From a virus: DNA of 36,069 nt. This document shows, one piece after another, positions 538 to 18,459 of the stretch (position 1 is its first letter; each line of letters begins with the position of its first letter). The stretch is taken from positions 1 to 36,069 of IMG/VR virus record IMGVR_UViG_3300031524_000040. One strand, written 5' to 3'. Position numbers and translations under genes: made by a program. The notes under the pieces were generated by a model. It ran no database searches. It was not told the origin of the DNA and saw only the letters and a list, made by a program, of their open reading frames with translations.

Positions 538-709
538 CAGGTGACTTGGTTCCACCGGGTGAGGTGATCGGATGGGAGACAGATGGGTTCAATGGTTAAT
601 CTCATGGGGACTGGTCCTGGTCGTGAGACGTGAACGATGACCGGGGGACAGCGGCGGGGGGAGAAGCCAAAGGCTCAAAATTCCCGTCTTTATCTGTATC
701 TGTATGCGT

Positions 710-759
710 TTGTCTTGCATTTTGTCTGGACATTTGTCCTAGACAGTTCTATACTTGTC
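710..759 (+). promoter_or_regulatory. Promoter with overlapping dyad and TTGTC repeats
   Basis: TGGACA (727-732), a 17-base spacer and TATACT (750-755) form a good sigma70-type promoter, each hexamer one mismatch from consensus. The -35 lies in an imperfect dyad: GTCTGGAC (724-731), ATTT, GTCCTAGAC (736-744). TTGTC also recurs at 710, 722, 734 and 755, the first three at exact 12-base steps. This arrangement suggests a regulator binding over the -35. The predicted start, near 762, is only a few bases before the ATG at 766. Confidence 0.5.
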
Positions 760-765
760 CTGACT

Positions 766-984
766 ATGACACCGAATACACTGAAAACATTGAGGAAAAT
801 AAGGCACCGATTAATGCGACTTGAGGAAATGGCGTGCTGCACGGGCGGATTTGACAGCGAGATTGAAAAAATGGAGCATTACCGGGAGAAGACGCTTCAA
901 TTCATCATGCAGCAGATTGATGATGCTCACGCGGAGGGTCTCGGGCTTGGTAGGCATGAGGCTCAACAGGGGGATGCGCGATGA
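766..984 (+). CDS. Small hypothetical protein ahead of the replication-type gene
   Basis: A 72-residue product beginning MTPNTLKTLRKIRHRLM, with a helical C-terminal part (EKMEHYREKTLQFIMQQIDD). Its stop overlaps the start of the next gene in an ATGA arrangement, which supports real translation and coupling. The start at 766 sits just 11 bases past the predicted -10, implying a nearly leaderless message. An alternative ATG at 814 has a weak AAGG upstream and would leave a 56-residue protein starting MRLEEMACC. No family recognised. Confidence 0.5.
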   Translation: MTPNTLKTLRKIRHRLMRLEEMACCTGGFDSEIEKMEHYREKTLQFIMQQIDDAHAEGLGLGRHEAQQGDAR

Positions 985-1490
985 ACGGCTTTGCGTTGCT
1001 TTGGGGCAAGATCCTGGATTCGTCACTTTGGCGGCAGGAGTCGAAGGAAACAAGGCTGGTCTGGATTACCATGCTGGCCATGAAAAACAGTGAGGGGAAA
1101 CTTTGGTCGTCGGTTGTCGGGCTGGCGGATCGGGCAAAGGTCACACTGGAGGAATGCAAAGAGGCCTTGGCAATTCTCTCGTCACCAGATGCCGAGGACA
1201 CCAGCGGCGTGGACGAAGGCCGGAGGATTCGGCAGATACAAGGCGGCTGGGAGATTGTGAACCACGACATGTATCGATTCAGCACCGAAGCCAAGCGGGA
1301 ATTTTGGCGGCAGCAAAAGGCGGAGCAAAGAGCGGCTGAGGCGGCAAAGAAGGCAAGGCGGAAGGGGCGGCGCAATACCGGCGATGACGGCAAACCGGCC
1401 AGCCATGCTTACAAGGCGAGGGAGCGGGCAGCAGTGGCCGAATACGAAAGGAGCGGCACCGGAGAGGCGGCACCGCTCAATGCTGGGTAA
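981..1490 (+). CDS. Replication-type winged-helix DNA-binding protein
   Basis: A 169-residue product. Residues 1-100 follow a pattern common in phage replisome-organiser N-termini: a GKILDSSLWRQESKETRLVW opening, VWITMLAMKNSEGKLWSS, a winged-helix core (VVGLADRAKVTLEECKEAL), an LSSPD turn, then GRRIRQIQGGWEIVNHDMYR. The C-terminal 60 residues are a highly charged, probably disordered or coiled tail (KAEQRAAEAAKKARRKGRR). Such proteins bind DNA and are thought to load helicase at phage origins; the family role is known, the role here is inferred. It is coupled to the preceding gene by ATGA and converges on the 1522-1734 gene across a hairpin. A second protein of this general type is at 13740. 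Confidence 0.65.
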   Translation: MNGFALLWGKILDSSLWRQESKETRLVWITMLAMKNSEGKLWSSVVGLADRAKVTLEECKEALAILSSPDAEDTSGVDEGRRIRQIQGGWEIVNHDMYRFSTEAKREFWRQQKAEQRAAEAAKKARRKGRRNTGDDGKPASHAYKARERAAVAEYERSGTGEAAPLNAG

Positions 1491-1496
1491 CATTTC

Positions 1497-1515
1497 CCCC
1501 GCTCCTAAAGCGGGG
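1497..1515. terminator. Hairpin between convergent genes
   Basis: CCCCGCT (1497-1503), a five-base loop and AGCGGGG (1509-1515) form a perfect 7-bp GC-rich stem in the 31-base gap between the convergent genes ending at 1490 and 1522. No clear T-run follows on either strand, so it may be a weak or Rho-assisted bidirectional terminator or only an mRNA end-stabilising hairpin. Confidence 0.45.
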
Positions 1516-1521
1516 TGATGG

Positions 1522-1734
1522 TCAGGCCGTGCAATGTTCGTAAGCTTTGCGCCGGCGCTCCATCTCCTGATTTTCTTCGGCCATGAATAATTGCTCGTGC
1601 CTGGCCTTGGCCTGCCTGGTTGCCAATTCTGCCGCTGCCAATGCCCTCCGGGCTTCATTCTCGGCTGTCCGGCAGGCGTTCAGTGATTCCTTTGCCCGGC
1701 GCAATCTGGTTTGGTTCTCAGTTTCGTTTTGCAT
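1522..1734 (-). CDS. Small coiled-coil protein
   Basis: A 70-residue product beginning MQNETENQTRLRRAKESL. It is almost entirely alpha-helical, rich in Ala, Glu, Arg and Gln with heptad-like spacing (ARRALAAAELATRQAKARHE), and therefore a likely short coiled coil. The frame runs further upstream to 1797, but that part overlaps the neighbouring gene and does not look coding, so the internal ATG at 1734 is chosen; it lies 7 bases after the stop of the 1742-1999 gene. It is the last of four small minus-strand genes (2358 to 1522) that read as one operon. Function unknown. Confidence 0.55.
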   Translation of the reverse strand: MQNETENQTRLRRAKESLNACRTAENEARRALAAAELATRQAKARHEQLFMAEENQEMERRRKAYEHCTA

Positions 1735-1741
1735 AATATTG

Positions 1742-1999
1742 TCAATGGGTGGATTTAGGGGACTGGATGGCATAATCACCATCCGAACGGGTTTCAAACC
1801 ACTTTGCGACCCCGTTTTTCACGATGGCGAATTGATTGCCGGTGTACCAGCGAGGCTCCCCGCCAACCCGGCGAAAGATTGCCCGAGGGAATAGGTGATG
1901 GCCTTTAGCTTCATCCTTGGCCGCTTGGCGGTCGGCGTGCCAGTCGGCAATTGCGAGTTGAGCCGCATTGGGGAGAATTGTTCCAAGTGGAGCTATCAT
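1742..1999 (-). CDS. Small hypothetical protein of the minus-strand early cluster
   Basis: An 85-residue product beginning MIAPLGTILPNAAQLAI. It has a helical basic segment (DWHADRQAAKDEAKGHH) followed by what looks like a small beta domain (FRRVGGEPRWYTGNQFAIV, then KWFETRSDGDYAI). The start is supported by its leader: ACCCCGCCAAATTATGA is identical over 17 bases to the leader of the next upstream gene, exactly 200 bases away. No family recognised. Confidence 0.55.
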   Translation of the reverse strand: MIAPLGTILPNAAQLAIADWHADRQAAKDEAKGHHLFPRAIFRRVGGEPRWYTGNQFAIVKNGVAKWFETRSDGDYAIQSPKSTH

Positions 2000-2022
2000 A
2001 ATTTGGCGGGGTGATGGGAGGG

Positions 2023-2199
2023 CTATAAGGTAATTTTCCACCCCGGATGGCTGAACACTGAATCTCCAATCCAGTGCTTTGGGGCCGGCAGCCATTTCTT
2101 GTGTACCTCGTCAAAATATGTCGAGGTCGATTTAATGATGAGGTGGGGAGACATATCAGCCAGGCCCAGGATGTTTTTAAAACGGTCAGGTTTTTTCAT
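2023..2199 (-). CDS. Small hypothetical protein (58 aa)
   Basis: A 58-residue product beginning MKKPDRFKNILGLADM and ending HPGWKITL. It has the same 17-base leader as the gene that follows it and lies 12 bases downstream of the 2212-2358 gene, so it fits the operon. The Trp-rich C-terminal half (KKWLPAPKHWIGDSVF) suggests a small compact fold. Function unknown. Confidence 0.55.
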   Translation of the reverse strand: MKKPDRFKNILGLADMSPHLIIKSTSTYFDEVHKKWLPAPKHWIGDSVFSHPGWKITL

Positions 2200-2211
2200 A
2201 ATTTGGCGGGG

Positions 2212-2358
2212 TTAAATTTTCTCGATTGCAAAATTGCCCGAATGCGTCCCGGTCAGCCGGTAGCCGAGCGTGAGAAGCCGGTTGCTACCCCAGCCGAGAT
2301 ATATAGAGCCGGAGATGATTCCTGCGAGCGTGGATTTGGCCTGTTGTTCGTTTGTCAT
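2212..2358 (-). CDS. Small hypothetical protein (48 aa), first gene of the minus operon
   Basis: A 48-residue product beginning MTNEQQAKSTLAGIISG and ending HSGNFAIEKI. It is the first gene downstream of the minus-strand promoter at 2399-2427, with a leader of roughly 34 bases. Gly, Ser and Leu are common, with a short hydrophobic stretch (LAGIISGSIYLGWG) that could be a buried helix or a weak membrane segment. Function unknown; support comes from length, spacing and operon position. Confidence 0.5.
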   Translation of the reverse strand: MTNEQQAKSTLAGIISGSIYLGWGSNRLLTLGYRLTGTHSGNFAIEKI

Positions 2359-2398
2359 ATTTCAGTTTCGGTTAAATGTTTTTCGTTCCAACAGGGAC

Positions 2399-2427
2399 AA
2401 TTTACTACAGGATAGTGAGCAATGCAA
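2399..2427 (-). promoter_or_regulatory. Minus-strand early promoter with operator O1
   Basis: Minus strand: TTGCAT (2427 to 2422), 17-base spacer, TAAATT (2404 to 2399). The spacer is filled by a dyad, read on the plus strand as TTACTA-CAGGA-TAGTGA (2402-2418). It has the same form and the same placement relative to -35 and -10 as two others, at 2553-2569 and 4592-4608. Likely operator for the Cro-like protein encoded at 4619, by inference. Confidence 0.6.
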
Positions 2428-2544
2428 ACAAATAATGAATAAATCTTTTGGCGTTATTCCGTGCCCGTTTCCACTTTATACACCTGCAATCCGTCCAATG
2501 TTTGCAACGGTTTTAAAGCATTTGAAATTATTTTAACATTTTTG

Positions 2545-2572
2545 TTGCATTCTTACTACAGAATGGTAAAGT
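2545..2572 (+). promoter_or_regulatory. Plus-strand early promoter with operator O2
   Basis: TTGCAT (2545-2550), 16-base spacer, TAAAGT (2567-2572). The dyad TTACTA-CAGAA-TGGTAA (2553-2569) occupies the spacer and shares its last three bases with the -10. The promoter faces away from the minus-strand promoter at 2399-2427, so the pair would be co-regulated. The predicted transcript starts near 2579, about 30 bases before the ATG at 2609. Confidence 0.6.
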
Positions 2573-2608
2573 GATTGTGTTGGTAGAAACAATAACATTA
2601 CTTTAGCT

Positions 2609-2851
2609 ATGAATATTTTAACCTCTCCCGTCCCTCATTGCGGAACCGTCCGCCTTGTCCGCTTTGTCCGGCCTGCCGGTGTCCCGACCTCGTTGTTGCT
2701 CGTCAAGGGCGATTACCACCCCGATGACGCGACCGTCATCCATTTTTGCCACGAATCTCCCCGCGTTGCGTACCGGGCATTCTCCACGATTGTGCGGGCC
2801 AAAAATAACGACCGCCGCAAAATCACCCTTCCCAAAATTTGCAGCAACTAA
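2609..2851 (+). CDS. Small hypothetical protein, first gene of the plus early block
   Basis: An 80-residue product beginning MNILTSPVPHCGTVRLV. It is basic, with a beta-rich pattern (TVRLVRFVRPAGVPTSLLLV, then ATVIHFCHESPRVAY). It is the first open frame after the O2-controlled promoter and lies 35 bases before the next gene, whose leader is A-rich. No family recognised. Other frames across the same stretch are also open, so the call rests on promoter spacing and order. Confidence 0.5.
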   Translation: MNILTSPVPHCGTVRLVRFVRPAGVPTSLLLVKGDYHPDDATVIHFCHESPRVAYRAFSTIVRAKNNDRRKITLPKICSN

Positions 2852-2885
2852 CCCCACAATTTAACCAAATAACCAAAATAACATT

Positions 2886-3299
2886 ATGCAAGCCATCATC
2901 ACAAAATTCCTGCCCGCCACAAACTTCAAAGGCAGCCGCATCAAAGCCATTTGCGAGCGCGGCAGTATCACCATCAGCGCGGACAGCGCATTGAGCGGCG
3001 AACATGCCCACATTGCCGCCGTCAACGCGCTGGTTGCCAAATTCGTCAAAGAGGATAAGGCGCGTTACGGGGACGAGCGCAACCCGTGGCAGTGCGTCCG
3101 CGCCTGCGGGCAATTGCCGAACGGCGATTATGCGCACGTCGCCGCCGATCCTGAAAAGCAGGTGATTGTGGAATTTCCGAATCACGACGAAAAGACGCGG
3201 TTTAAAACCTACCTCAAAGACATTCAGGCGACTACTTCGACAGTCACCGGGCTATCCGCCGGCCTTGGTTGCTCGTCCCTCCGGCATGTCCTGATTTGA
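2886..3299 (+). CDS. Conserved-looking early phage or plasmid protein, function unknown
   Basis: A 137-residue product. The opening MQAIITKFLPATNFKGSRIK, then ICERGSITISADSALSGE, resembles a small protein I associate with phages and plasmids that starts with the same M-Q-A-I...LPAT...GSRIKA pattern; its function is not known to me. The middle is alpha-helical (HIAAVNALVAKFVKED). The last 30 residues (STVTGLSAGLGCSSLRHVLI) are unlike the rest and may be a divergent tail. The leader is A/C-rich and has no Shine-Dalgarno site (ACCAAAATAACATTATG). Confidence 0.65.
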   Translation: MQAIITKFLPATNFKGSRIKAICERGSITISADSALSGEHAHIAAVNALVAKFVKEDKARYGDERNPWQCVRACGQLPNGDYAHVAADPEKQVIVEFPNHDEKTRFKTYLKDIQATTSTVTGLSAGLGCSSLRHVLI

Positions 3300-3312
3300 A
3301 TCCCCCGAAATC

Positions 3313-3373
3313 GCCGGGCGCGTGAGTGCCCGGCGCGGTCGGTGAATACAAACCAAACAGCCGGGCGACCGGC
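3313..3373 (+). repeat. Paired-hairpin intergenic module, copy 1
   Basis: GCCGGGC (3313-3319) pairs with GCCCGGC (3328-3334) in a 7-bp stem just after the stop at 3299. A linker containing AATACAAACCAAACA follows, then GCCGG-GCGA-CCGGC (3360-3373), a hairpin closed by a GNRA-type tetraloop. Twelve bases later comes the ATG at 3386. The linker, second hairpin and GGAAAGAAAAATATG are nearly repeated before the gene at 3654. Confidence 0.55.
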
Positions 3374-3385
3374 GGAAAGAAAAAT

Positions 3386-3583
3386 ATGAAAACGATTAAG
3401 CCTGTTGAAAAATTGACGGAGAAAAACTCGCCCGTTGGAAAACGAATTGTGTCGGGGGCCTATGGTGCCGGTCTTTGTATTGGAGCAACTAAGAACTTCT
3501 TGGCCGTTGAGTTTGACAGTGGTGTTGAAACCACAGTTGACCGGAGTGGCAACCTTCATTTTGAGCGTCCCGCAAAATATTAA
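3386..3583 (+). CDS. Small hypothetical protein (65 aa)
   Basis: A 65-residue product beginning MKTIKPVEKLTEKNSPVG. Residues 18-60 read as a small beta barrel (KRIVSGAYGAGLCIGATKNFLAVEFDSGVETTV): alternating hydrophobic strands and Gly turns, reminiscent of SH3-like or Tudor-like folds. The start is fixed by the repeated leader with GGAAAG upstream. The open frame extends further upstream through the hairpin module, which is not credible coding sequence. Function unknown. Confidence 0.6.
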   Translation: MKTIKPVEKLTEKNSPVGKRIVSGAYGAGLCIGATKNFLAVEFDSGVETTVDRSGNLHFERPAKY

Positions 3584-3592
3584 CTACCTCCT

Positions 3593-3640
3593 CCCGGTTC
3601 GCCGGGGAATAAAAACCAAACCAACAGCCGGGCGACCGGC
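3593..3640 (+). repeat. Paired-hairpin intergenic module, copy 2
   Basis: CCCGG-TTCG-CCGGG (3593-3606) is a hairpin with the very stable UUCG tetraloop. The linker GAATAAAAACCAAACCAACA leads to a second hairpin, GCCGG-GCGA-CCGGC (3627-3640), identical to the one at 3360-3373, then GGAAAGAAAAAATATG and the start of the 3654 gene. It sits neatly between two small genes. Confidence 0.6.
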
Positions 3641-3653
3641 GGAAAGAAAAAAT

Positions 3654-3776
3654 ATGGCAACTAAAAAAGTAAATATCAAAAACAAAAACGCTGGAATCCG
3701 CAATGCTTTTTACCAGTCCACCGGCCGCAAGGCAAAAACGTTGCGGGAAGCAAAAGCCTATTTCGGGATCAAGTAA
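3654..3776 (+). CDS. Very small basic protein (40 aa)
   Basis: A 40-residue product beginning MATKKVNIKNKNAGIRNAF and ending AKAYFGIK. It is strongly basic (11 Lys or Arg in the first 30 residues) and could bind nucleic acid. The start is set by the duplicated hairpin leader; the frame is open upstream but overlaps the preceding gene. Function unknown. Confidence 0.5.
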   Translation: MATKKVNIKNKNAGIRNAFYQSTGRKAKTLREAKAYFGIK

Positions 3777-3793
3777 CCCCTGGCCAATCCTCC

Positions 3794-4027
3794 ATGAAAC
3801 ACACATTCGCCATAGAAGTCAAAAGGGGCATTACCGCGGCACGGCTTAAAGCATGCATAGATGCTTATGTCAGGTTGCACTTTGACGCGCAAGCCCCAGG
3901 CGTTCCGGGTGCAATCCATTTGAAATCGTCGCGGCTCCTGTCCGAAACAAACGAAACCAAAACAATCGAAATTGAATCCGAGTTCGTACAAACCCAACCC
4001 CCTCCCGGCGGGCAAGCCGGGGAATAA
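3794..4027 (+). CDS. Small hypothetical protein (77 aa)
   Basis: A 77-residue product beginning MKHTFAIEVKRGITAARLKA. It has a ferredoxin-like flavour: a strand (HTFAIEVK), a helix (AARLKACIDAYVRLHF), strands (GAIHLKSS, KTIEIESEF) and a Pro/Gly-rich tail (QTQPPPGGQAGE). The DNA of that tail coincides with the hairpin at 4004-4021, so the C-terminus may be shaped by RNA structure rather than protein function. Its start follows the previous stop by 17 bases with CCTCC upstream. No family recognised. Confidence 0.55.
   Translation: MKHTFAIEVKRGITAARLKACIDAYVRLHFDAQAPGVPGAIHLKSSRLLSETNETKTIEIESEFVQTQPPPGGQAGE
4004..4021 (+). repeat. Hairpin leader, copy 3 (single hairpin)
   Basis: CCCGGC (4004-4009), loop GGGCAA and GCCGGG (4016-4021) make a 6-bp stem overlapping the end of the 3794 gene. 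It is followed by GAATAAAATTATG and the start at 4032. The CCTCCCGG entry and the GGGGAATAAAA exit match copy 2 at 3593, so it is a shortened member of the same leader family. Confidence 0.5.
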
Positions 4028-4031
4028 AATT

Positions 4032-4355
4032 ATGAATAAAATCGAACACACTCCGCCACCTTTGGCGCAACCCCTATCATTTGGCATGACCCCATGGCAC
4101 ATGGGGGCCGACAATGATGGATGCTGGGGAATCTGGACACGCAAATGCGAAAAGCCCGGCAGCCTGAATCATTTTGCGATTGCGGTTGGAATCCAGGACG
4201 AGCGCGAAGCCGCTTTCATCGCCACCGCCTGCAATGAACACGCCGCGCTGGTGGCTGTGGCCGAGGCGGCGCGCAACCTGACGTCCGACAACGGCGGGCG
4301 CGCGCTGGATGCCGCGCTGGCGCGTTTGGCCGAGGTACAGGGAGGTGCAAAATGA
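4032..4355 (+). CDS. Hypothetical early protein (107 aa)
   Basis: A 107-residue product beginning MNKIEHTPPPLAQPLSFG. The N-terminal half has Trp and Cys residues in a compact pattern (MTPWHMGADNDGCWGIW, then RKCEKPGSLNHFAI) that reads as a small beta domain. The C-terminal half is a helix rich in Ala (EREAAFIATACNEHAALVAV, then ALARLAEVQGG). Phage early regions often carry such proteins of unknown role. Its stop overlaps the next start (ATGA) and GGGAGG precedes that start. Confidence 0.6.
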   Translation: MNKIEHTPPPLAQPLSFGMTPWHMGADNDGCWGIWTRKCEKPGSLNHFAIAVGIQDEREAAFIATACNEHAALVAVAEAARNLTSDNGGRALDAALARLAEVQGGAK

Positions 4356-4570
4356 GCGCACCACTTTACACCGTGCGCCACACACCGGCGACACTAACCG
4401 CGAATGAGCGTTATTACGCCAAACGCGGCGACGAGGCGGAAATGCTGCCGTGCGCGACGCCAAACGAGGCGCTTGAAATCTCCACGTTCCTCAACGAGCC
4501 GCATCGGGCGGCGGAACTATCCGCCATGTTTTGGCGCGAATTTCCAGGCAAAATTGACCCCCTAAAATAG
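4352..4570 (+). CDS. Small hypothetical protein (72 aa)
   Basis: A 72-residue product beginning MSAPLYTVRHTPATLTANE, translationally coupled to the 4032 gene by ATGA with a good ribosome site (GGGAGG) inside that gene's end. It has acidic and basic segments and two short helices (NEALEISTFLNEPHRAAELS). No family recognised. It ends just before the O3 promoter, which starts a new transcription unit. Confidence 0.55.
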   Translation: MSAPLYTVRHTPATLTANERYYAKRGDEAEMLPCATPNEALEISTFLNEPHRAAELSAMFWREFPGKIDPLK

Positions 4571-4583
4571 TCGCTTAATTCTT

Positions 4584-4611
4584 TTGACATCTCACTAATC
4601 CGTGGTACTAT
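4584..4611 (+). promoter_or_regulatory. Promoter of the Cro-like gene, with operator O3
   Basis: Perfect TTGACA (4584-4589), 16-base spacer, TACTAT (4606-4611). The dyad TCACTA-ATCCG-TGGTAC (4592-4608) fills the spacer and overlaps the -10 by three bases, exactly as O1 and O2 do in their promoters. The predicted start, near 4618, coincides with the ATG at 4619, so the message would be leaderless. The geometry suggests autoregulation. Confidence 0.65.
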
Positions 4612-4618
4612 TTTGAAA

Positions 4619-4804
4619 ATGAAAACATTCCAAGACAAAATCACCCAAGCGCGTGCGCGTGCGGGGCTGAACCAAGAGCAGACAGCCGCACTGTTGGACG
4701 TGTCCCAGCAAGCCGTGTCAAAGTGGTGTGCGGGCGTCTGTGAGCCGTCAAAGTTGATGCAAAACGCGGTTCTCGAAAAACTCAAAGCGAAAGGAACAAA
4801 ATGA
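4619..4804 (+). CDS. Cro-like helix-turn-helix regulator (XRE type)
   Basis: A 61-residue product beginning MKTFQDKITQARARAG. Residues 17-40 form a classic helix-turn-helix: LNQEQTAALLDVSQQAVSKW, with Gln-Thr-Ala-Ala in the first helix and S-Q-Q-A-V-S-K-W in the recognition helix. The length fits Cro/Cox-type repressors, which bind short dyads as dimers. Its promoter contains the O3 dyad in the spacer, and related dyads lie in the divergent promoters at 2399-2572, so it probably represses itself and both early units. A TTG at 4613 is in frame but lies upstream of the predicted transcript start, so the ATG is preferred. Confidence 0.8.
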   Translation: MKTFQDKITQARARAGLNQEQTAALLDVSQQAVSKWCAGVCEPSKLMQNAVLEKLKAKGTK

Positions 4805-5010
4805 CCATCCCCAGCGACAACAACCCTTTGAAGGACCACGGCGACGCTGACGACCTGTCCCGCGAGGGCATCAGCGAACCTCATCCGCTGCCCGAGGATT
4901 ATTACCACGACCAAAACCACAAGGACAGCATCTGCATTTTTTGCTGGGTGATTGTCGCCTCGCTGGTGCTGGGACTGGTCATGTTGATCGCGCATTTTTT
5001 CAGCAAATAA
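4801..5010 (+). CDS. Small membrane protein with C-terminal anchor
   Basis: A 69-residue product beginning MTIPSDNNPLKDHGDADDL. The first 43 residues are acidic, His-rich and soluble; residues 44-66 are one hydrophobic helix (ICIFCWVIVASLVLGLVMLI) ending HFFSK. This is a tail-anchored, probably inner-membrane protein with the acidic part in the cytoplasm. It is coupled to the regulator gene by ATGA. Small early membrane proteins of phages often act in superinfection exclusion or host takeover, but nothing here shows that role. Confidence 0.65.
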   Translation: MTIPSDNNPLKDHGDADDLSREGISEPHPLPEDYYHDQNHKDSICIFCWVIVASLVLGLVMLIAHFFSK

Positions 5011-5039
5011 TTTCGGTAAACCATTAACAAAAAAATATT

Positions 5040-5381
5040 ATGGGACTGGACACTTCACACAACTGTTGGCATGGACCTTATTCGTCATTTAACAACTTTC
5101 GGCGCAGCATCATGCTGGCCCTTGGAAATCCACCGCTTGACAGCATGGAGGGTTTTGGGGGCAATACCCCTTGGTCCGAGATTAAGGACAAATCGCTAAA
5201 CGCGCTGCTGAATCATTCGGATTGCGACGGCAAAATTGACAAGGAGGGCTGCCGCGAATTGGCCTTGGCGATTGAAAAGGCGTTGCCCCTCTTTAATGAT
5301 GAGACTCGGCGCAAGGCTGCCCGATTCGCAGCAGGATTGCTTGAAGCGGCAATGCTGGGGGAAGATGTTATTTTCAATTAA
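5040..5381 (+). CDS. Conserved phage protein, paralogue of the 11657 gene
   Basis: A 113-residue product beginning MGLDTSHNCWHGPYSSFN. This N-terminus (MGLDT-H--WHG-YSSF--FR), together with MEGFGG, LNHSDCDGKID and a C-terminal helix (RRKAARFAAGLLEAAMLGED), is a pattern I recall from many phage and prophage hypothetical proteins; no function is known to me. A second copy, about half identical, lies at 11657. The Cys, His and Asp residues in LNHSDCDG are conserved in both copies and could bind metal. The leader is A-rich with no Shine-Dalgarno site (TTAACAAAAAAATATTATG). Confidence 0.7.
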   Translation: MGLDTSHNCWHGPYSSFNNFRRSIMLALGNPPLDSMEGFGGNTPWSEIKDKSLNALLNHSDCDGKIDKEGCRELALAIEKALPLFNDETRRKAARFAAGLLEAAMLGEDVIFN

Positions 5382-5389
5382 TCACGGTT

Positions 5390-5436
5390 GCGCGTGCCTT
5401 CTCACGCGCTCATTAACCAGAGTGCCGATTACGGCA
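5390..5436 (+). repeat. Paired hairpins in the leader of the coiled-coil gene
   Basis: GCGCGTG (5390-5396), loop CCTTCT and CACGCGC (5403-5409) form a 7-bp stem. TGCCG-ATTA-CGGCA (5423-5436) forms a second stem. GTTT-AGCG-AAAC follows shortly, then an A-rich stretch and the ATG at 5468. The hairpin-linker-hairpin-A-rich-ATG layout resembles the modules at 3313 and 3593, although the sequences differ. Confidence 0.5.
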
Positions 5437-5467
5437 TTCCGTTTAGCGAAACAAAAACATTACATTT

Positions 5468-6682
5468 ATGAGCGATACCAAAACCATTGAATTAGAAATT
5501 GTCGAGACCGATCAAAAGCTGGCTCAAGCCGCCCAGCAAACTGGACTGGAAAAGCCCGCAACATCACAACTTGTGGCCGCATTCCAGCCGATTTACGCGA
5601 AAGCCCGGACGGCGATTGATGCCGCCAAGGGCGTGGCTGAATCTGTGAAAGACGCAACGTGCGTCACGCAGATTCGCAAATCCCGCGAATGCCGTCTGGC
5701 GATTCGCGCCGTGCGCATCGAGAGCGAGAAAACGCGCGTGGCGCAAAAGCAGCACGCCCTGCTTTACGGAAAAGCGGTTGATGGGTTTCATAACATCCTC
5801 ATGGCCGACTTGTCCCCGGTGGAAACAGCTTTGCAGGAGGCGGAGGACTTCGCGGAGCGCGCCGAAGCCGCGCGCTTGTCGGAACTCAAGGCCGAGCGCG
5901 AAAAGGTCTTGCTGCCGCTGCTGGAATCGCCGGTTGTGACCGACCTGTCAATCCTCACGGAAAGCGATTTTGCCAAGCTGGTGGCCTACGCCAAGCTTTT
6001 GAAGCAAGCCAAGATCGAAGCCGCAGCGAAGGCGGAGGCCGAAGCCAAGGCCAAAGCCGAGGCGGAACGGTTGGAACGTGAGCGCATCGCCGCCGAAAAT
6101 GCCCGGTTGAAAGCGGAGGCCGAAGCCCGCGAAGCCGCTGCCAAAGCGGAGCGCGAGGAAGCCGCCCGCAAGCTGGCCGAGGAACGCGCGGCGGCGGAAG
6201 CGGCTCGCAAGCTGGCTGAGGAAACGGCCCGCAAAGAGCGGGAGGCCATCGAGGCGAAGGCCAAGGCCGAACGCGCGGCGGCGGAAGCCAAGGCGCGGGA
6301 AGAACGCCTTGCCGCCGAAGCGCAAGCGCGGAAGGAGCGGGAACGGTTGCAGGCCATCGCGGATGAAGAGCGCAAGAAGCTCGCTGCCGCCGAAGCTGCC
6401 GCCAAGGCTTTGCGCGACGCCGAGGCCAAGCGGGTGGCTGATGCCGAAGCGGAAGCCAAGCGCCTGCGGGACGCGGAAGCCAAGCGATCCGCCGAGGTTG
6501 CCGCCGCCGCACGGAAAGCCGCCGCCGCGCCGGACAATGCCAAGGCAAAGGCATTCGCGGAACACCTGCGGGCCATGGACCTGCCGAAGTTCAACGCGAA
6601 GGCATTCGACCTGCTGCCCTCCAAAATCGAGGCTCTGGCCAAGTGGGTCGAGTCGCAAATCTCAACCGGGGAGCTACTGTGA
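5468..6682 (+). CDS. Long coiled-coil protein upstream of the ERF gene
   Basis: A 404-residue product. Residues 1-180 are helical and mixed in composition (SQLVAAFQPIYAKARTAIDA, then KSRECRLAIRAVRIESEKTR). Residues about 180-360 are an uninterrupted Ala/Glu/Lys/Arg helix of the TolA type (AAKAEAEAKAKAEAERLERE and similar), likely a single alpha helix or coiled coil. The last 40 residues form a small capped segment (MDLPKFNAKAFDLLPSKIEA). It overlaps the ERF gene by four bases, so the two are translated together; a long helical partner next to a recombinase is common in phages, and a scaffold or accessory role is inferred only. The repetitive DNA also opens long antisense frames that are not genes. 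Confidence 0.75.
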   Translation: MSDTKTIELEIVETDQKLAQAAQQTGLEKPATSQLVAAFQPIYAKARTAIDAAKGVAESVKDATCVTQIRKSRECRLAIRAVRIESEKTRVAQKQHALLYGKAVDGFHNILMADLSPVETALQEAEDFAERAEAARLSELKAEREKVLLPLLESPVVTDLSILTESDFAKLVAYAKLLKQAKIEAAAKAEAEAKAKAEAERLERERIAAENARLKAEAEAREAAAKAEREEAARKLAEERAAAEAARKLAEETARKEREAIEAKAKAERAAAEAKAREERLAAEAQARKERERLQAIADEERKKLAAAEAAAKALRDAEAKRVADAEAEAKRLRDAEAKRSAEVAAAARKAAAAPDNAKAKAFAEHLRAMDLPKFNAKAFDLLPSKIEALAKWVESQISTGELL

Positions 6683-7413
6683 AACCAGCCAGCGAAATAG
6701 CGGTCGTCGAGCCTCAAGCGGTGGCGATTACCGGACCTGCTCCGCAACTGTCCATCCAAGCCGCCTTTCAAGCCATCATTTCCGGCGACCTGTCGCATGA
6801 GAAGCTGGAAATCATCCAAAAATTGCTGGCCATGGATGCCGAAAAGCAGTTCATCCAAGCCTACAACCGAATGATGGGGCGCATCCCGATCATCGAGGCC
6901 AAGAGCGTTATCCCGAATCGCGGGAAGTACGCCAAATTTGAGCACATCATGGAAATCATTTTGCCGATTTTGAAGAGCGAAGGGTTTGCCCTTTCCTTCA
7001 CCAGCGAAATGATTGAAACCAATCCCCCGAAGATCAAGGCGACTTGCACCATTTCGCACACGGGCGGGCATAGCCGCTCGGGTTCATTCACCTGCCGTGT
7101 CGGCGGGCGGTCTGACTCGGATACCCAGTCCGATTGCAAAGCCGCCACCACGGCCAAGCGCAACGCCATGAACCAGCTTTTAAACATCGTCATCACCCAG
7201 GACGTAATGACCGAGGAGCATGATGCCGGGATGGAATCGGAAAACTTCATCGACACGGCGAAGGCGGCGGAGTTTGAAGAGCGGTTGCTGGCCACGGGCA
7301 GCGACTTGGACGCCTTCCTAAAATGGGTTGACGCGCCGAATTTTGCGCGATTGCCCATCGCCAAGCTGGCCGACATTGAAAGCATGATTCGGCGGAAGGA
7401 GAAAACATCATGA
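6679..7413 (+). CDS. erf: ERF-family single-strand DNA annealing protein
   Basis: A 244-residue product. ERF proteins anneal complementary single strands during phage recombination and replication, working with a 5'-3' exonuclease. The ERF signature is visible at residues 55-165: QAYNRMMGRIPIIEAKSVIP, KYAKFEHIMEIILPILKSEG, FALSFTSEMIE, then a GHSRSGSFTCRV strand pair and SDCKAATTAKRNAMNQLLNI (the conserved K-R--L-N-L-type helix). The GTG at 6679 is chosen because GGGGAG precedes it and it overlaps the previous stop in a GTGA arrangement; an upstream ATG at 6643 lies deep inside the previous gene. The YqaJ-like exonuclease two genes downstream completes the expected pair. Confidence 0.85.
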   Translation: MKPASEIAVVEPQAVAITGPAPQLSIQAAFQAIISGDLSHEKLEIIQKLLAMDAEKQFIQAYNRMMGRIPIIEAKSVIPNRGKYAKFEHIMEIILPILKSEGFALSFTSEMIETNPPKIKATCTISHTGGHSRSGSFTCRVGGRSDSDTQSDCKAATTAKRNAMNQLLNIVITQDVMTEEHDAGMESENFIDTAKAAEFEERLLATGSDLDAFLKWVDAPNFARLPIAKLADIESMIRRKEKTS

Positions 7414-7604
7414 AGGGCAAACGCATTAAAACCTTTGAGCAGTTGGCCAAGGCGGCGGACGAGCGCAAAAGCATCGTTTGGGGCAGTACAAACTACAAAG
7501 GCTGGAAGCCGACCCCGGCCATGTGGGCATTGAATTGGAGCGGCGGTTTTATTCGGAACGTTTTGCATTGCGGCATGTGGATTTACAAAAAGGCCAAACA
7601 ATGA
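7410..7604 (+). CDS. Small hypothetical protein between ERF and exonuclease
   Basis: A 64-residue product beginning MKGKRIKTFEQLAKAADERK. It overlaps the ERF stop and the next start by four bases each, so it is a genuine member of the recombination operon. The C-terminal half is Trp-rich (WKPTPAMWALNWSGGFIRNV, then GMWIYKK). I know no family. A helper role in recombination is suggested by position alone. Confidence 0.6.
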   Translation: MKGKRIKTFEQLAKAADERKSIVWGSTNYKGWKPTPAMWALNWSGGFIRNVLHCGMWIYKKAKQ

Positions 7605-8302
7605 AAATCCACACGGAATTTTCCCAAAATTCGGACGCATGGTTTTCCGCCCGCGCCGGGGTCATCACCGCCAGCGAGGTTAAAGCCCTTGTGACGCCCA
7701 CTTTTAAAGTGTCCAAAGGCGACGGGGTGCAAACCTATCTGGCGCAAAAGCTGGCTGAATGGTGGCTTCAGGCCCCTTTGGACAAGTTTAACAACTTCGA
7801 CATGGAGCAGGGCCAGATACTTGAAGCCGAGGCGCGGCGGACCTATATATTTGAGACGGGCGAGCAATTGCAAACTGTTGGTTTTATCACGTCGGACGAC
7901 GGGGTTTTAGGTTGCTCGCCGGATGGCCTGATGCCGGACCACGGCGCGGAGATCAAATGCCCGCAGGCGAAAACTCACACGTCCTATTTGCTGGATGGGA
8001 TTTTGCCCACGGAATACGGGCCGCAGGTCCAATTCAGCATGTACGTCACCGGGTTCAAAACGTGGCGATTCATGAGCCACCGCCGCAAGTTCCCGCCGTT
8101 CATTATCACGGTTGAACGCGACCCAGTTGCCCAAACGGCGATCGCCACCGCGCTGGCCGGCTTCCTGCCGATGTTTGAAGCGGCCAAGGCAAAACTGCTT
8201 GCCCTTAACGGCGGAGTGCGTCCACCAAAGCCCGAGGCTGCCATAACGCCCGAAGAATACATGCGGCGTAACCCTGACCCCAACTTCGACGGGAGACATT
8301 AA
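7601..8302 (+). CDS. YqaJ/lambda-exonuclease-like nuclease
   Basis: A 233-residue product. The PD-(D/E)xK nuclease core is readable: an early SDAWFSARAGVITASEVKAL (the R-x-G-x-I-T-A-S motif typical of YqaJ), an acidic helix MEQGQILEAEARRTYIFETG, the strand LGCSPDGLM containing the catalytic Asp, and AEIKCPQAK containing the catalytic Glu-x-Lys, followed by YGPQVQFSMYVTG (the Q-x-Q helix). This class digests the 5' strand of double-stranded ends to give the 3' tails that ERF anneals. The start at 7601 overlaps the previous stop; an upstream frame extension lies inside the neighbouring gene. Confidence 0.88.
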   Translation: MKIHTEFSQNSDAWFSARAGVITASEVKALVTPTFKVSKGDGVQTYLAQKLAEWWLQAPLDKFNNFDMEQGQILEAEARRTYIFETGEQLQTVGFITSDDGVLGCSPDGLMPDHGAEIKCPQAKTHTSYLLDGILPTEYGPQVQFSMYVTGFKTWRFMSHRRKFPPFIITVERDPVAQTAIATALAGFLPMFEAAKAKLLALNGGVRPPKPEAAITPEEYMRRNPDPNFDGRH

Positions 8303-8314
8303 CCCACGCGATTT

Positions 8315-8695
8315 ATGCCCATATCTCAATTTGAACTCCAGCAGATGCAAGCGCGTCTGGCGATCAACCGCAACCAAAAGGCCGCGAGCGCGTGCGAAAG
8401 CACAGCCATGGGCGTGGACAAGGAAAGCGATTTGCACAGCGACATTCTGGCCGATTGCCGGCAGCGGGGCTGGATTGCCCTGCATGGTTCCATGGCGCAG
8501 ACCACCGGACGCACAGAAGGCGAGCCTGATTTTTGCATCCTTGCCGACGCTGGCCGCGTATTTTTCATTGAGTGCAAGACGAGGGTTGGGAAGCTGTCCC
8601 CGGCGCAACATGCCATGGCCCATTTTGCGGAAAAACTCGGGCACAAAATCCACCTTGTCCGAAACATGGCTCAATATTTGGAGATTGTGAAATAA
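8315..8695 (+). CDS. VRR-NUC domain nuclease
   Basis: A 126-residue product. Residues 35-120 match the VRR-NUC form of the PD-(D/E)xK fold: ESDLHSDILADCRQRGW, then GRTEGEPDFCILADAGRVFF, IECKTRVGKLSPAQHAMAHF and a final LGHKIHLVRNMAQYLEI. The Glu-Pro-Asp and Glu-Cys-Lys residues are the probable catalytic set. In phages such stand-alone domains are thought to act as structure-specific or Holliday-junction nucleases, near recombination genes as here. The first 30 residues are a basic helical extension (ELQQMQARLAINRNQKAASA). Confidence 0.82.
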   Translation: MPISQFELQQMQARLAINRNQKAASACESTAMGVDKESDLHSDILADCRQRGWIALHGSMAQTTGRTEGEPDFCILADAGRVFFIECKTRVGKLSPAQHAMAHFAEKLGHKIHLVRNMAQYLEIVK

Positions 8696-8697
8696 TT

Positions 8698-8943
8698 ATG
8701 ACCGTTAACCACACCATCACACGCGACGAAGTTGAAATTGAAATCACCTGCGAGGTTAAAATGTGGGGCGGGGCGAAGGGTGCCCGCGATTCATTCGGGG
8801 TGCCGCTTGAGCCGGACGATGAGCCTGAGGCGGAGATAATTTCCGTGACGCCGGACATTGAATTGACCGAGGACGAAGAATGTGCGATCCGCGAAAAGGC
8901 TTTTGATCAAGCGGCGGATGAGGCAAATGATTTTGAGGAATGA
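8698..8943 (+). CDS. Small acidic hypothetical protein
   Basis: An 81-residue product beginning MTVNHTITRDEVEIEITCEV. It is very acidic in the second half (EPDDEPEAEIISVTPDIELT, then EDEECAIREKAFDQA). The pattern of strand, acidic loop and C-terminal helix recalls small phage proteins of unknown role. It starts two bases after the VRR-NUC stop with TAATTATG, without a Shine-Dalgarno site; the frame upstream lies inside the nuclease gene. Confidence 0.55.
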   Translation: MTVNHTITRDEVEIEITCEVKMWGGAKGARDSFGVPLEPDDEPEAEIISVTPDIELTEDEECAIREKAFDQAADEANDFEE

Positions 8944-8944
8944 C

Positions 8945-9193
8945 ATGAAACTTTACAAACAACTGCCCAATCCGCCGAAGTCGCCAATCATCGGACAGTT
9001 TACCGTTCATAACAAAGTGGCGGACTTCTGGACGCCGGACGCCACCAAGGGCAGCTTGGTGGCTGAGTTGCGATTTCCTGAAATCGTTCACGCTTCGAGC
9101 GAGGGCATTTTCCTTAAAGGCTATGAGCCTGCTGGCGTTGACAAAACCGGACGGGAAATCACGAAATATCAGGAGTGGTGGATGCTTTATTGA
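8945..9193 (+). CDS. Small hypothetical protein (82 aa)
   Basis: An 82-residue product beginning MKLYKQLPNPPKSPIIGQF and ending KYQEWWMLY. It is beta-rich with a run of short strands (VADFWTPDATKGSLVAELRF). It follows the 8698 gene by one base, so it is likely coupled. No family recognised; the hydrophobic, aromatic C-terminus (WWMLY) is conspicuous and may be an interaction tail. Confidence 0.5.
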   Translation: MKLYKQLPNPPKSPIIGQFTVHNKVADFWTPDATKGSLVAELRFPEIVHASSEGIFLKGYEPAGVDKTGREITKYQEWWMLY

Positions 9194-9216
9194 ATTTACG
9201 GTAACAAACAAAAACT

Positions 9217-9417
9217 ATGAAACCAAAAACTGCAAAAGACTGGGAGAATCTGGCGGAAGCGGCGATGAGTGCCGGGCTTAAAGTCCTTGCCAAGGAGGCT
9301 AAAAAGAACAATGCACCTTTTGAAGATTACGAGGATTCCCGGTGGGACCTCTTGAAATCGTACCAGAAATCCGGGTGGATCGCCGCCGCCAAATTCATCG
9401 CCCGCAAACTAAAATGA
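9217..9417 (+). CDS. Small basic hypothetical protein (66 aa)
   Basis: A 66-residue product beginning MKPKTAKDWENLAEAAMSAG. It is all alpha-helical and basic overall (VLAKEAKKNNAPF, then WIAAAKFIARKLK), ending in an amphipathic cationic helix. The leader is A/C-rich (GGTAACAAACAAAAACTATG) and lacks a Shine-Dalgarno site. Its stop overlaps the ASCH gene start (ATGA). Function unknown. Confidence 0.55.
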   Translation: MKPKTAKDWENLAEAAMSAGLKVLAKEAKKNNAPFEDYEDSRWDLLKSYQKSGWIAAAKFIARKLK

Positions 9418-10130
9418 AAACGACACCTCTATTATTCAAAGCGGAGATGGTCCGCGCCATCCTTCTCGAAATCGACCCGAAGACGCAGACAAGGCGCACA
9501 GAGGGGTTAGATGCTGTGAATGCCGCGCCGGATGATTGGAAGCCTCTTTTTATTCATCCCGTTACCTGGATTAAAAACCAAAAGCCCACCGTTCAGTTTT
9601 TGAATATTCGGACTAGATTGATTGTGGATTGCATTTCTAAAAAAGGAATGCCCGGCGATCAAATATGGGTGAAGGAGACGTTTTGCTACGACGACTTTGG
9701 AGACCCGATTTACCGCGCCACCGAACCGGATCAGGGGTGCAGTCACCCAGAAGATATGTCGCCATGGAAACCCTCAATCTTCATGCCGCGCAAATCCTCC
9801 CGCATCACCCTTGAGCTAACCGAAGTGAGGGTGGAAAGGCTGAATGAGATCAGCGAGGCGGATGCCATCGCGGAGGGGGTTAATCCGCACGTTGAGGCCA
9901 AATGGTGGCAGGGCTACCGCAAAGACGACCCGCTCATGCACACCTGCGCAGAGGCGGACGAAAACGGAAACCCGCCCGATTGGATAATCGAAGCCAAGCC
10001 TTATCGGGATTTGTCCCACCTAAATCGAACCGCAAAGCAGGAATACGCAATCCTCTGGGAATCCATCAACGATCCCGGCTCCTGGGCGGCAAACCCTTTC
10101 GTATGGGTGTACGAGTTCAAAAAGCTATGA
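9414..10130 (+). CDS. ASCH/PUA-like domain protein of phage type
   Basis: A 238-residue product. It follows a widespread phage protein pattern with an ASCH-like beta barrel: FKAEMVRAILLEIDPKTQTR near the N-terminus, GDQIWVKETFCY, then WKPSIFMPRKSSRITLELTE, VRVERLNEISEADAIAEGV and a C-terminal ILWESINDPGSWAANPFVW. ASCH domains are related to RNA-binding PUA domains, and some members act on modified nucleosides; the phage form has no settled function that I know. It is coupled on both sides by ATGA overlaps. The start at 9414 is chosen for that overlap. Confidence 0.8.
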   Translation: MKTTPLLFKAEMVRAILLEIDPKTQTRRTEGLDAVNAAPDDWKPLFIHPVTWIKNQKPTVQFLNIRTRLIVDCISKKGMPGDQIWVKETFCYDDFGDPIYRATEPDQGCSHPEDMSPWKPSIFMPRKSSRITLELTEVRVERLNEISEADAIAEGVNPHVEAKWWQGYRKDDPLMHTCAEADENGNPPDWIIEAKPYRDLSHLNRTAKQEYAILWESINDPGSWAANPFVWVYEFKKL

Positions 10131-10495
10131 GACGCTTCACCAATAATTACAATTCGGACGGCAAGGAAAAACGCCGCCAAGCACGGGAAGCGGCTGGGAA
10201 TAAATGCATCCGATGCGGATCGCCGTCCGTCCCCGGAAAGATCCTCACCACCCACCATTTTGACGGCGACAAATCGAATGATGAATGGTGGAATTTGCTG
10301 GCACTATGTCAGGTTTGTCACTTGCAAATCCAAGGCAGGGTGGACCCGGAAACGCCGTGGTTTCTGCCTCACTCGGAATGGATCAAGCCTTATGTGGCTG
10401 GATTTTACGCCAGTAAATATGAGGGCAGGAATATTACCCGCGAGGAAGCGGAAACCCGAATGACCACATTGCTCGCCTATGAACTTAGAGCGTAA
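10127..10495 (+). CDS. HNH endonuclease-like protein (small)
   Basis: A 122-residue product beginning MRRFTNNYNSDGKEKRRQAR. The HNH fold is visible: a Cys-x-x-Cys knuckle (CIRCG), the strand-helix LTTHHFDGDKSNDEWWNLLA with the His-His pair and a following Asn, then LCQVCHLQIQGR supplying the second Cys pair. Such proteins nick or cut DNA, and in phages they assist packaging or act as homing nucleases; which applies here is not clear, and the terminase is not in this window. It overlaps the ASCH gene by four bases and the next gene by 17. Confidence 0.75.
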   Translation: MRRFTNNYNSDGKEKRRQAREAAGNKCIRCGSPSVPGKILTTHHFDGDKSNDEWWNLLALCQVCHLQIQGRVDPETPWFLPHSEWIKPYVAGFYASKYEGRNITREEAETRMTTLLAYELRA

Positions 10496-10721
10496 CCCCA
10501 TAACCATCGCCCGCGAGCAGGGTCGCAAGGCGGGACTGGACCCGAAGCTGCATCTCGGATTAAACCCCCATGTCAAGGGACGCGAGCCAGCCTTATGGGA
10601 AGCATGGCGGCAGGGATACGAATCCACCGTTGAGCGGTTCACCGTCCAGACAAAGGCAAAGTTTGACGGCATTCCGCATGGGGGCACGGAAGATTTCCCC
10701 AACAAACCACTTGACGGATGA
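10479..10721 (+). CDS. Small hypothetical protein with Rmf-like motif
   Basis: An 80-residue product beginning MNLERNPITIAREQGRKAG. Residues 12-50 (EQGRKAGLDPKLHLGLNPH, then ALWEAWRQGYES) resemble the ribosome modulation factor pattern G-x-x-A-G...N-P...W...W-x-x-G, an uncertain resemblance. If real it would bind ribosomes or nucleic acid. It starts inside the end of the HNH gene. The region after it, to 11230, has no credible gene. Confidence 0.5.
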   Translation: MNLERNPITIAREQGRKAGLDPKLHLGLNPHVKGREPALWEAWRQGYESTVERFTVQTKAKFDGIPHGGTEDFPNKPLDG

Positions 10722-10752
10722 AAACACTTGTGCGGTGCTTTGAACGTCAGAT

Positions 10753-11118
10753 GCTCATTAGCGTGAGCGAAAGTGATCGATGCAAAATTTCTCCGTGTCA
10801 CGGGGTAAACTTCTTCGACCGATCCACCCACGCTAACGTGACACGGGAATACTTTTCCCTCTCTGACCGCGTAACCACTGGAAATCGCTTTGGGCGAGCC
10901 ACTGGCGAAGGAGCGGCGCTCATGGACAGCCAACATGGGACAGCGAGTGCTGATAGCCGCAAGCGGCCCTTTTGGCTTAATGCGGGGTGTTCGGGTAGTC
11001 TGCGAGAAAAGACTAGGGTCGGCTCTGGTGAACCGTTGCCCGTGGCCCGTAAAAAGCGAAGCGAACGACCGACGGAAACGGTTGCGCCAAAGCTAATGCT
11101 TCCCAATTTAAGGTTGGG
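10753..11118 (+). ncRNA. Candidate structured RNA in a 500-base gene desert
   Basis: A frame is open through 10718-11203 but its translation is Ser/Arg/Cys-rich and unlike a protein. The DNA instead shows dense complementarity. TTAGCGTG (10758-10765) pairs with CACGCTAA (10829-10836), and CCGTGTCACG (10793-10802) pairs with CGTGACACGG (10837-10846), in pseudoknot order. The first segment can also form GCTCA/TGAGC (10753-10768), whose loop TTAGCG matches 10831-10836. Further stems: GCGCTC/GAGTGC (10916/10945), GCCG-CAAG-CGGC (10956-10967), TAGTCT/AGACTA (10996/11010), AACCGTT/AACGGTT (11031/11077) and CCCAA/TTGGG (11102/11114). The strand is assumed plus. I match no known family. Confidence 0.5.
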
Positions 11119-11230
11119 GGTATTATGCTCGCTCACTCCCTCCGAAAACTGTTGGTCAAATGCGGGTGAAGTAAAGGTTTTAAGTCTTTGTCTTATGTCT
11201 TAATTCCCTTTCTTAACTTTTTATCTTATT

Positions 11231-11593
11231 ATGAATTGCAGATATTGCGGACAATTAATAATCGGTGATTCCGTAAAAACATTGGCTTACTGGAACCAAA
11301 CGACGGATATATGCCACGCCGAATGCAAGGCCATCGGAGAGCGGACAGAGGCTTTTGATTGCCAGACCATTGATGCCGATTGCAACGACTGCAAGCATTT
11401 TCAGCGCGGCAACCTGATTCAAAACTGGCTCTCCGATATGGCGGACGGGAAAGCCACAAAGCGGCTGGTCAACATGGGAATTTTTAACGGAATGTGCCAG
11501 CGCTTTAACACTCCCGCGAAGGCTTTCCCGAAAATGTCAACCGGGAGGAGCTGCTTTGAACACCGAAGAAATATCCCTAGAGTTGTCGCATGA
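11231..11593 (+). CDS. Cys-rich, probably zinc-binding hypothetical protein
   Basis: A 120-residue product. It begins MNCRYCGQLIIGDSVKTLAY with one Cys-x-x-Cys knuckle, then has ICHAEC (His and Cys), then DADCNDCKHFQRGN (another Cys-x-x-Cys-x-H), and later MCQRFN and SCFEHR. This gives at least two likely metal sites. The second half (ADCNDCKHFQRG, then GMCQRFN) resembles small phage proteins in which Cys-x-x-Cys-x-x-F is followed by a distant Cys. It is preceded by an AT-rich leader with no Shine-Dalgarno site. Role unknown; nucleic-acid binding is plausible. Confidence 0.65.
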   Translation: MNCRYCGQLIIGDSVKTLAYWNQTTDICHAECKAIGERTEAFDCQTIDADCNDCKHFQRGNLIQNWLSDMADGKATKRLVNMGIFNGMCQRFNTPAKAFPKMSTGRSCFEHRRNIPRVVA

Positions 11594-11656
11594 GCTTTTG
11601 CAACCGAGCCGAACCGAAGAAACTACATATCCAATAACAATTAACACAACAACATT

Positions 11657-11995
11657 ATGGGACTTGAGACTACACACAACTGCTGGCATGGGCCTTACTC
11701 GTCATTCAACCAATTCAGGTGTGCGATTGCCCTTGCAGCCGGGTTCAATCTTGAAGAGATGGAGGGATACGATGGAGGGCGCAAATGGGAGTCGCTTCCA
11801 CCAAATAAAATCCATTTGCTTTTAGATCATTCCGATTGCGAAGGAAGGCTTGATTGGAAGCAATGCGGGCATATCGCGGAATCCTTCATTGAGTTGTACC
11901 CACGTTTAGACCCTCGATGGCAGGTGGAAGCTAGGCAATTCGTCAAAGGACTTCGACTGGCCAGAAAACAAAAGAAAAGCGTGATTTTCAGCTAA
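11657..11995 (+). CDS. Conserved phage protein, paralogue of the 5040 gene
   Basis: A 112-residue product beginning MGLETTHNCWHGPYSSFNQF. It is a second copy of the 5040-type protein: MEGYDGG and LLDHSDCEGRLD line up with MEGFGG and LLNHSDCDGKID there, and both end in a basic helix followed by VIF. The two copies differ enough to be an old duplication or separate acquisitions. The leader (AACACAACAACATTATG) is A/C-rich and resembles that of the first copy. Family function unknown. Confidence 0.7.
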   Translation: MGLETTHNCWHGPYSSFNQFRCAIALAAGFNLEEMEGYDGGRKWESLPPNKIHLLLDHSDCEGRLDWKQCGHIAESFIELYPRLDPRWQVEARQFVKGLRLARKQKKSVIFS

Positions 11996-12053
11996 CTAAA
12001 TAGGGATGGTCCACCTAGTCTTTTGCAGTTGTCTTTAATTCTTAAATATTATT

Positions 12054-12446: not shown

Positions 12447-12494
12447 CCAACAACCCCCGTCGCCGCCTGACCAATTACAACAAGCAATGAGTTT

Positions 12495-12701: not shown

Positions 12702-12711
12702 CCAACAAATT

Positions 12712-12906: not shown

Positions 12907-12922
12907 TTTTAACCAACAAATT

Positions 12923-13502: not shown

Positions 13503-13569
13503 TTTATGATCGAAAACACAGCCGAAAATCGGATAATTGCTTGATTTAGTGGAGCTTTTGGGGTATGTT

Positions 13570-13726: not shown

Positions 13727-13739
13727 GTCTTTACCCCCT

Positions 13740-15055: not shown

Positions 15056-15062
15056 TACACCT

Positions 15063-15463: not shown

Positions 15464-15466
15464 TTT

Positions 15467-16628: not shown

Positions 16629-16655
16629 CGGTCCCCGGCGAAGGCGAGGATTAAT

Positions 16656-17156: not shown

Positions 17157-17167
17157 AAAATCAAAAT

Positions 17168-17199: not shown

Positions 17200-17232
17200 T
17201 GTTGGTGGGCGAAACATTAAAACGCCCGAAGG

Positions 17233-18447: not shown

Positions 18448-18459
18448 ATAAAATTAGCG

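Follow-up and report, generated by a model that had tools for sequence, protein, structure and literature searches.

Three operator-like dyads in early promoters of an uncultivated phage and their probable recognition by a 61-residue Cro-like protein

Among the classical phages, 434 and P22 possess all-helical Cro proteins, and lambda operators exhibit a 6-N5-6 geometry. For PY54, a published study describes a leaderless cro mRNA made from a strong promoter (PMC4488713), and the Cro proteins of PY54 and phiKO2 are reported to bind a single site, leaving their own promoter unaffected (PMC4488713, PMC4997575). Here, we analyzed a virus record of 36,069 bp that is classified as linear (IMGVR_UViG_3300031524_000040, the whole of which is hereafter called the window) and contains a gene for a 61-residue Cro-like protein (cro) and three 17-bp dyads, designated S1, S2, and S3, that are located in three early promoters. 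Judging from their sequences, these dyads are probably operators of the Cro-like protein, which would shut its own promoter and a divergent pair of early promoters. In the literature searched, we noticed no account of this phage or its operator.

Three dyads and their placement in the promoters

The three 17-bp dyads were found exactly as they had been written in the original prediction (Table 1). A base-by-base check in promoter orientation also upheld the placement claimed for them in three promoters on both strands: the dyad starts 3 bases past the −35 element for S1 and 2 bases past it for S2 and S3, and the overlap with the −10 element is exactly 3 bases in all three. S3 overlaps the promoter of the cro gene itself, and its right half, like that of S2, doubles as an extended −10 element (TGG before TAnnnT). 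The single dyads S1 and S2 are 151 bp apart and S3 lies 2 kb away, with no tandem operators between divergent repressor genes. Since each site is positioned between the −35 and −10 elements, a protein bound there would have to compete with RNA polymerase.

Table 1. Coordinates of the putative operators, promoters, and neighboring genes in the window
Feature	Position	Strand	Remarks
Operator S1 (putative), TTACTA-N5-TAGTGA	2402..2418	.	5/6 dyad pairs
Operator S2 (putative), TTACTA-N5-TGGTAA	2553..2569	.	5/6 dyad pairs
Operator S3 (putative), TCACTA-N5-TGGTAC	4592..4608	.	3/6 dyad pairs
Minus-operon promoter (inferred)	2399..2427	-	TTGCAT (2427-2422), 17 bp, TAAATT (2404-2399); expected start ~2392
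Plus early block promoter (inferred)	2545..2572	+	TTGCAT, 16 bp, TAAAGT; expected start ~2579
Cro-like gene promoter	4584..4611	+	TTGACA, 16 bp, TACTAT, extended -10; 10/12 (promoter scan)
Cro-like gene, 61 aa, HTH_3	4619..4804	+	ATG at 4619
Minus operon, four small open reading frames	1522..2358	-	no confident match to a family; first ATG at 2358
Early plus block, small open reading frames between S2 and S3	2609..4570	+	open reading frame list, family scans
Downstream of cro: coiled-coil-like repetitive protein (by eye), Erf annealing protein, YqaJ/RecE-type exonuclease, VRR-NUC nuclease	5468..8695	+	

The original prediction had called for a motif scan of the complete genome. The phage is also represented by a second record, IMGVR_UViG_3300029953_000619 (G001; 51,637 bp). 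Base 17,505 of G001 corresponds to base 1 of the window, the end of G001 falls at window position 34,133, and the first 270 bases of G001 are identical to window 35,800–36,069, so that the two records close into a circle of 53,303 bp. The pattern occurs in the window with zero mismatches only at the three sites, and in G001 with up to one mismatch again only at these three, where a backward control pattern gave 1 match. With up to two mismatches, the 8 matches in the window equal chance (8.1 expected). As this pattern had been derived from the sites themselves, it was tested by leaving sites out. A matrix made from S1 and S2 placed S3 at the top of all other positions of the circle (score 12.4 versus 9.7 for the next), and S1 or S2, when left out, also ranked best outside the training sites. 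When the stretch upstream of cro (4571–4620) was shuffled 20,000 times, the S3 score was reached in 30 cases. Meanwhile, 10 of 60 whole-circle shuffles contained such a score somewhere; therefore, the place of the match rather than its score constitutes the evidence.

The symmetry of the sites was evaluated separately. Between 2359 and 2608, 32 dyad pairs with spacers of 0–10 showed a half-site agreement of at least 20/24, among which S1/S2 was the best (22/24), and only S1/S2 and its own nested register had their next-best match in the cro promoter. The S1/S2 pair alone was equalled in 59 of 400 shuffles, and the triple dyad score in 14 of 300 when any spacer of 0–10 was allowed and in 2 of 300 with a spacer of 5. 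When the triple was anchored to the promoters, 17 of 5,000 shuffles were as good, and so were 3 of the 425 actual 250-bp segments of the circle, including the one that holds the sites themselves. An unbiased dyad count over the whole circle was dominated by GC-rich halves and spoke neither for nor against the sites. The dyads by themselves are only modestly significant.

The Cro-like protein and the search for other regulators

The 61-residue protein matched the HTH_3 (helix-turn-helix) profile with 31.2 bits, above the curated cut-off of 23, and also matched several phage repressor PHROGs. Its structure predicted from a four-sequence alignment, in which the row of the related contig L040 lacks the first Met, contains helices at residues 4–15, 19–26, 30–37, and 45–59, with a predicted local distance difference test score (pLDDT) of 88.7 and a predicted template modeling score (pTM) of 0.69. 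This replaced a single-sequence prediction of poor quality (pLDDT 78.9, pTM 0.41). A PDB structure search with the model gave nothing at E 0.001; the best matches were the controller protein C.BclI and then phage 434 Cro (E 0.025–0.035, TM 0.67–0.70; TM 0.70 and E 0.035 for 434 Cro, the second), and P22 c2 (TM 0.77, E 0.12) and P2 C appeared further down. The predicted structure is all-helical and has the Cro/CI fold. In the sequence search against solved structures, one weak match was obtained, MbcA (E 0.0025). The 434 repressor is known to read the A-C of ACAA with its QQ residues. We take the SQQ in the recognition helix of the 61-residue protein to resemble this QQ, and AC is present in all six half-sites of S1–S3. 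Only 7 bases separate the −10 element from the cro ATG, so the cro mRNA is probably leaderless. The corresponding distance between the likely −10 element and ATG is 9 bases in the related contigs L026 and L030, as read by eye.

That no second repressor is visible had been stated for the window, and this was upheld beyond it. The HTH_3 profile at E 0.001 matched one gene of G001, namely cro, and no peptidase S24 match was found in the window record (G000) or in G001. Neither the tyrosine integrase (PF00589) nor the serine resolvase (PF00239) family had a match at E 0.001 in the two records. A Pfam scan of 78 open reading frames (ORFs) from both records detected 15 families, none of which is a regulator, an integration recombinase, or a partition protein; each family was found in one ORF, leaving most of the 78 of unknown kind. 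This set is separate from cro, the coiled-coil gene, two ORFs of >1,000 residues, and shorter overlapping ORFs, and one of the two long ORFs (L015:390–3698) gave no match in a separate scan. The parallel PHROGs scan is represented by the 25 families listed of 62. A lysogeny module is thus not recognisable, which leaves room for unknown families, and the presence of one repressor holds as far as known families go.

The further suggestion that this repressor forms a switch was not borne out. No integrase, resolvase, or S24 repressor was recognised, and there is one operator per promoter and all three placements would repress, which points to negative feedback or early shut-off and not to two stable states. 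For a two-state switch, either mutual repression or activation would be required, neither of which is visible, and a lysis–lysogeny decision by the lone Cro-like protein is not supported.

Relatives, rival explanations, and the proposed circuit

Searches of viral contigs with cro and with the gene that opens the plus block retrieved only the same phage. Through the coiled-coil gene located downstream of cro, 13 viral contigs besides the phage's own were found, and a small XRE gene precedes this coiled-coil gene in L025/L026/L031 (one sequence), L030, and L040; HTH_3 was detected at E 0.1 or better in 3 of the 13 records. The cro genes in this slot share 32% (L026), 30% (L030), and 24% (L040) identity with that of the window. 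In L026 and L030, the plus block begins with cro, which faces a minus operon across back-to-back TTGACT boxes, with TTGACT-16-TAATCT for the divergent cro (both read by eye). Four further contigs found through the 2886 gene (L005–L008) share only that gene with the plus-strand early region and have no HTH_3 match, so that among the five records searched only G001 was positive. Nine named phage records carry a weakly similar HTH gene, of which four upstream regions were read by eye without a systematic operator test. Matches to phages were also obtained with the 2886 and Erf genes, but these were distant (<60% identity) and of no help.

The dyad form was also searched for without regard to the protein. 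Composite promoter-operator patterns matched 74 (S1-type) and 53 stretches in viral contigs, and the leaderless form of the pattern matched 6 in genome contigs; in both collections, they lay mostly in or before unrelated genes, as judged by eye from the downstream ORFs without a family scan. One of the six (L181) precedes a TetR-like ORF by eye. A viral contig unrelated to the phage, L084, was found to carry an XRE gene 28 bases downstream of an S1-type match. Its intergenic region (2529–2628) contains three YACYA-N5-TRGTR dyads at 2529, 2575, and 2614, which are flanked by a repressor with HTH_3 and S24 domains on one side and a 76-residue Cro-like HTH_3 protein on the other. A related pattern with one mismatch gave 8 matches at this locus (two strands, five places), versus 0.34 expected; one L084 site was selected by the pattern search, so only the other two are independent evidence. 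Among 88 sequences with a match, a second dyad was present within 300 bp in 8, and three dyads in L084 alone, in a stored-strand count that is an over-count. The region had no match in the phage collection. L084 thus reads as a textbook lambda-like two-repressor layout with the same operator form beside XRE genes as the window. It differs from the window in that its three copies are 46 and 39 bp apart and lie between an S24-domain CI and a Cro-like gene, and in the recognition helices of its proteins.

Several observations weigh against the assignment of the dyads to the Cro-like protein. The S1 and S2 promoters are weak, with 7/12 consensus bases by manual count, and were not listed by the promoter scan, the threshold of which was 9/12, unlike the S3 promoter. 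S3 is a weak dyad (3/6), the right half of which is partly the extended −10 element. Since 10 of the 13 related records lack an HTH_3 match at E 0.1, the Cro-like gene is dispensable in this group; where it is present (L026, L030, and L040), the recognition helices differ from that of the window. Reading the L026 and L030 promoters by eye gave no defensible shared motif, which leaves the site without a conservation footprint; the cro slot is shared among the relatives, the DNA site not demonstrably so. Finally, of the 127 viral-contig stretches, only S3 and the L084 site have an XRE gene just downstream (by eye).

The dyads could be real operators bound by a repressor of the host or by a phage protein that escaped recognition, with cro merely one of the targets. 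The link between protein and site was drawn from sequence, and the many Pfam-scanned ORFs of unknown kind give this explanation room. It nevertheless seems unlikely, because autoregulation from an adjoining site is a common arrangement of XRE genes, no other HTH family was recognised by the HTH_3 and Pfam scans described above, and the CI/Cro pair of L084 uses the same operator form.

It is less likely still that the shared sequence is a promoter element, namely an extended −10 (TRGTA) with a conserved upstream spacer, perhaps duplicated, which no repressor binds. Such an element would account for TGGTAnnnT in S2 and S3, the constant register to the −10 element, and the 11 invariant columns in the 21-bp stretch common to the three promoters. 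It would also fit the resemblance of S1 to S3, which is higher along the promoters (12/17 bases) than against them (8/17), though this comparison alone would suit an operator equally. S1, however, fits S2 better against the promoter orientation (14/17) than along it (10/17). Agreement in both orientations is the behavior of a dyad, which therefore favors an operator over a one-way element, as does the 5/6 symmetry of S1 and S2. In addition, the left half CTYACTA is contained in no sigma-70 element known to us. Lastly, chance similarity among AT-rich promoter spacers is very improbable, because the best match in the circle after S1 and S2 lies precisely in the cro spacer and is rarely reproduced by shuffling the region upstream of cro, although the dyad pair or triple alone, or an S3-quality site somewhere in the circle, is not rare in shuffles.

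The Cro-like protein accordingly stays the probable ligand. The original prediction, in which one small repressor controls the minus operon, the plus block, and itself, is sustained as to the operator form in three promoters and the adjoining position of the Cro-like gene at one of them; the identity of the binder is what we infer, together with promoter activity, the order and timing of repression, and the leaderless start. All three promoters would fire on infection, and the repressor would be made from its own leaderless mRNA and by read-through from the early block that precedes it. Each 17-bp site would be bound by a dimer that covers the spacer together with the first half of the −10 element, thereby excluding RNA polymerase. 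As S1 and S2 exceed S3 in matrix score, the divergent early promoters are predicted to close earlier than cro and the Erf/exonuclease block, and the promoter of cro itself, with the poorest match, would be shut at a higher repressor level. The outcome would be a self-limiting early shut-off by negative feedback. This circuit is a sound and fairly ordinary kind of phage control. We tentatively suggest, as a possibility with the odds against it, that it acts as a minimal one-protein timer, in which a leaderless Cro-like repressor with one operator per promoter and ordered affinities closes the divergent promoters first and its own recombination operon afterwards; the phage itself has no recognisable CI, S24 repressor, or integrase. 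If true, such a timer could additionally confer superinfection exclusion, or a carrier state that does not involve lysogeny.

The uncultivated phage thereby gains a concrete, testable circuit, for which the protein is named, three targets of 17 bp are given, and transcript starts are predicted. If confirmed, it would exemplify a Cro working alone in a phage without recognisable lysogeny genes, and would bear on the question of whether a lone cro gene in an apparently virulent phage is a relic or a working timer.

Genomic surroundings and comparison with known Cro systems

The plus strand (~600–19,000) carries most of the early, recombination, and replication-type genes, and the minus strand most of the large ORFs, one with a major-tail-protein match. 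A tRNA search of the window and the 17.6-kb left part of G001 detected none. The host was not found, as the search of genome contigs with a coiled-coil profile gave no confirmed relative. In the minus operon, the same CCCCGCCAAATT stretch is located directly before the ATGs at 1999 and 2199 (2000–2012 and 2200–2212), and the ORFs starting there have no obvious Shine-Dalgarno sequence. The minus operons of L026 (4590–4790) and the matching part of L030 contain a long tract of GCCGTA/GCCGTC/GCCGGA-type hexamer repeats differing in length. In the plus block, a GC-rich leader of ~54 bp is repeated (87%, BLAST) ahead of two different small genes (3340–3388 and 3603–3656). A 75-bp repeat (85%) covers the starts of the ORFs at 11657 and 5040 (11636–11710 and 5019–5093); two ORFs share phrog_11026, which are probably this pair. 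A dyad or repeat seen by eye at 709–760 was not confirmed by the repeat finder. In a minus-strand gene block of G001 outside the window (L015:14292–15086), a 264-residue protein matches Acb3, an inhibitor of the cyclic-oligonucleotide-based antiphage signaling system (CBASS), with a Pfam E of 2.5e-35. On the minus strand of the window, 17233–17679 weakly matches the Acb2/Tad1 hairpin domain (E 4.8e-4, which is below the cut-off) and marks a possible second anti-CBASS or sponge-type gene.

The proposed circuit can be compared with two groups of known systems. According to the PY54 and phiKO2 reports, those phages likewise have a small Cro with single rather than tandem binding (PMC4488713, PMC4997575); in the same accounts, they differ in possessing a prophage repressor, where none was recognised here, and in having one Cro site, as opposed to the three predicted here, which include the cro promoter. 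Similar to the Cro systems of lambda, 434, and P22, a putative dyad operator overlaps early promoters on both strands as well as the promoter of cro itself. The small all-helical XRE protein predicted here is shared with 434 and P22, and the 17-bp 6-N5-6 operator geometry with lambda. In contrast to these three phages, no CI partner or integrase was recognised, their tandem operator triplets are replaced by one operator per promoter, and cro is located 2 kb inside the plus early block instead of at the divergent promoters.

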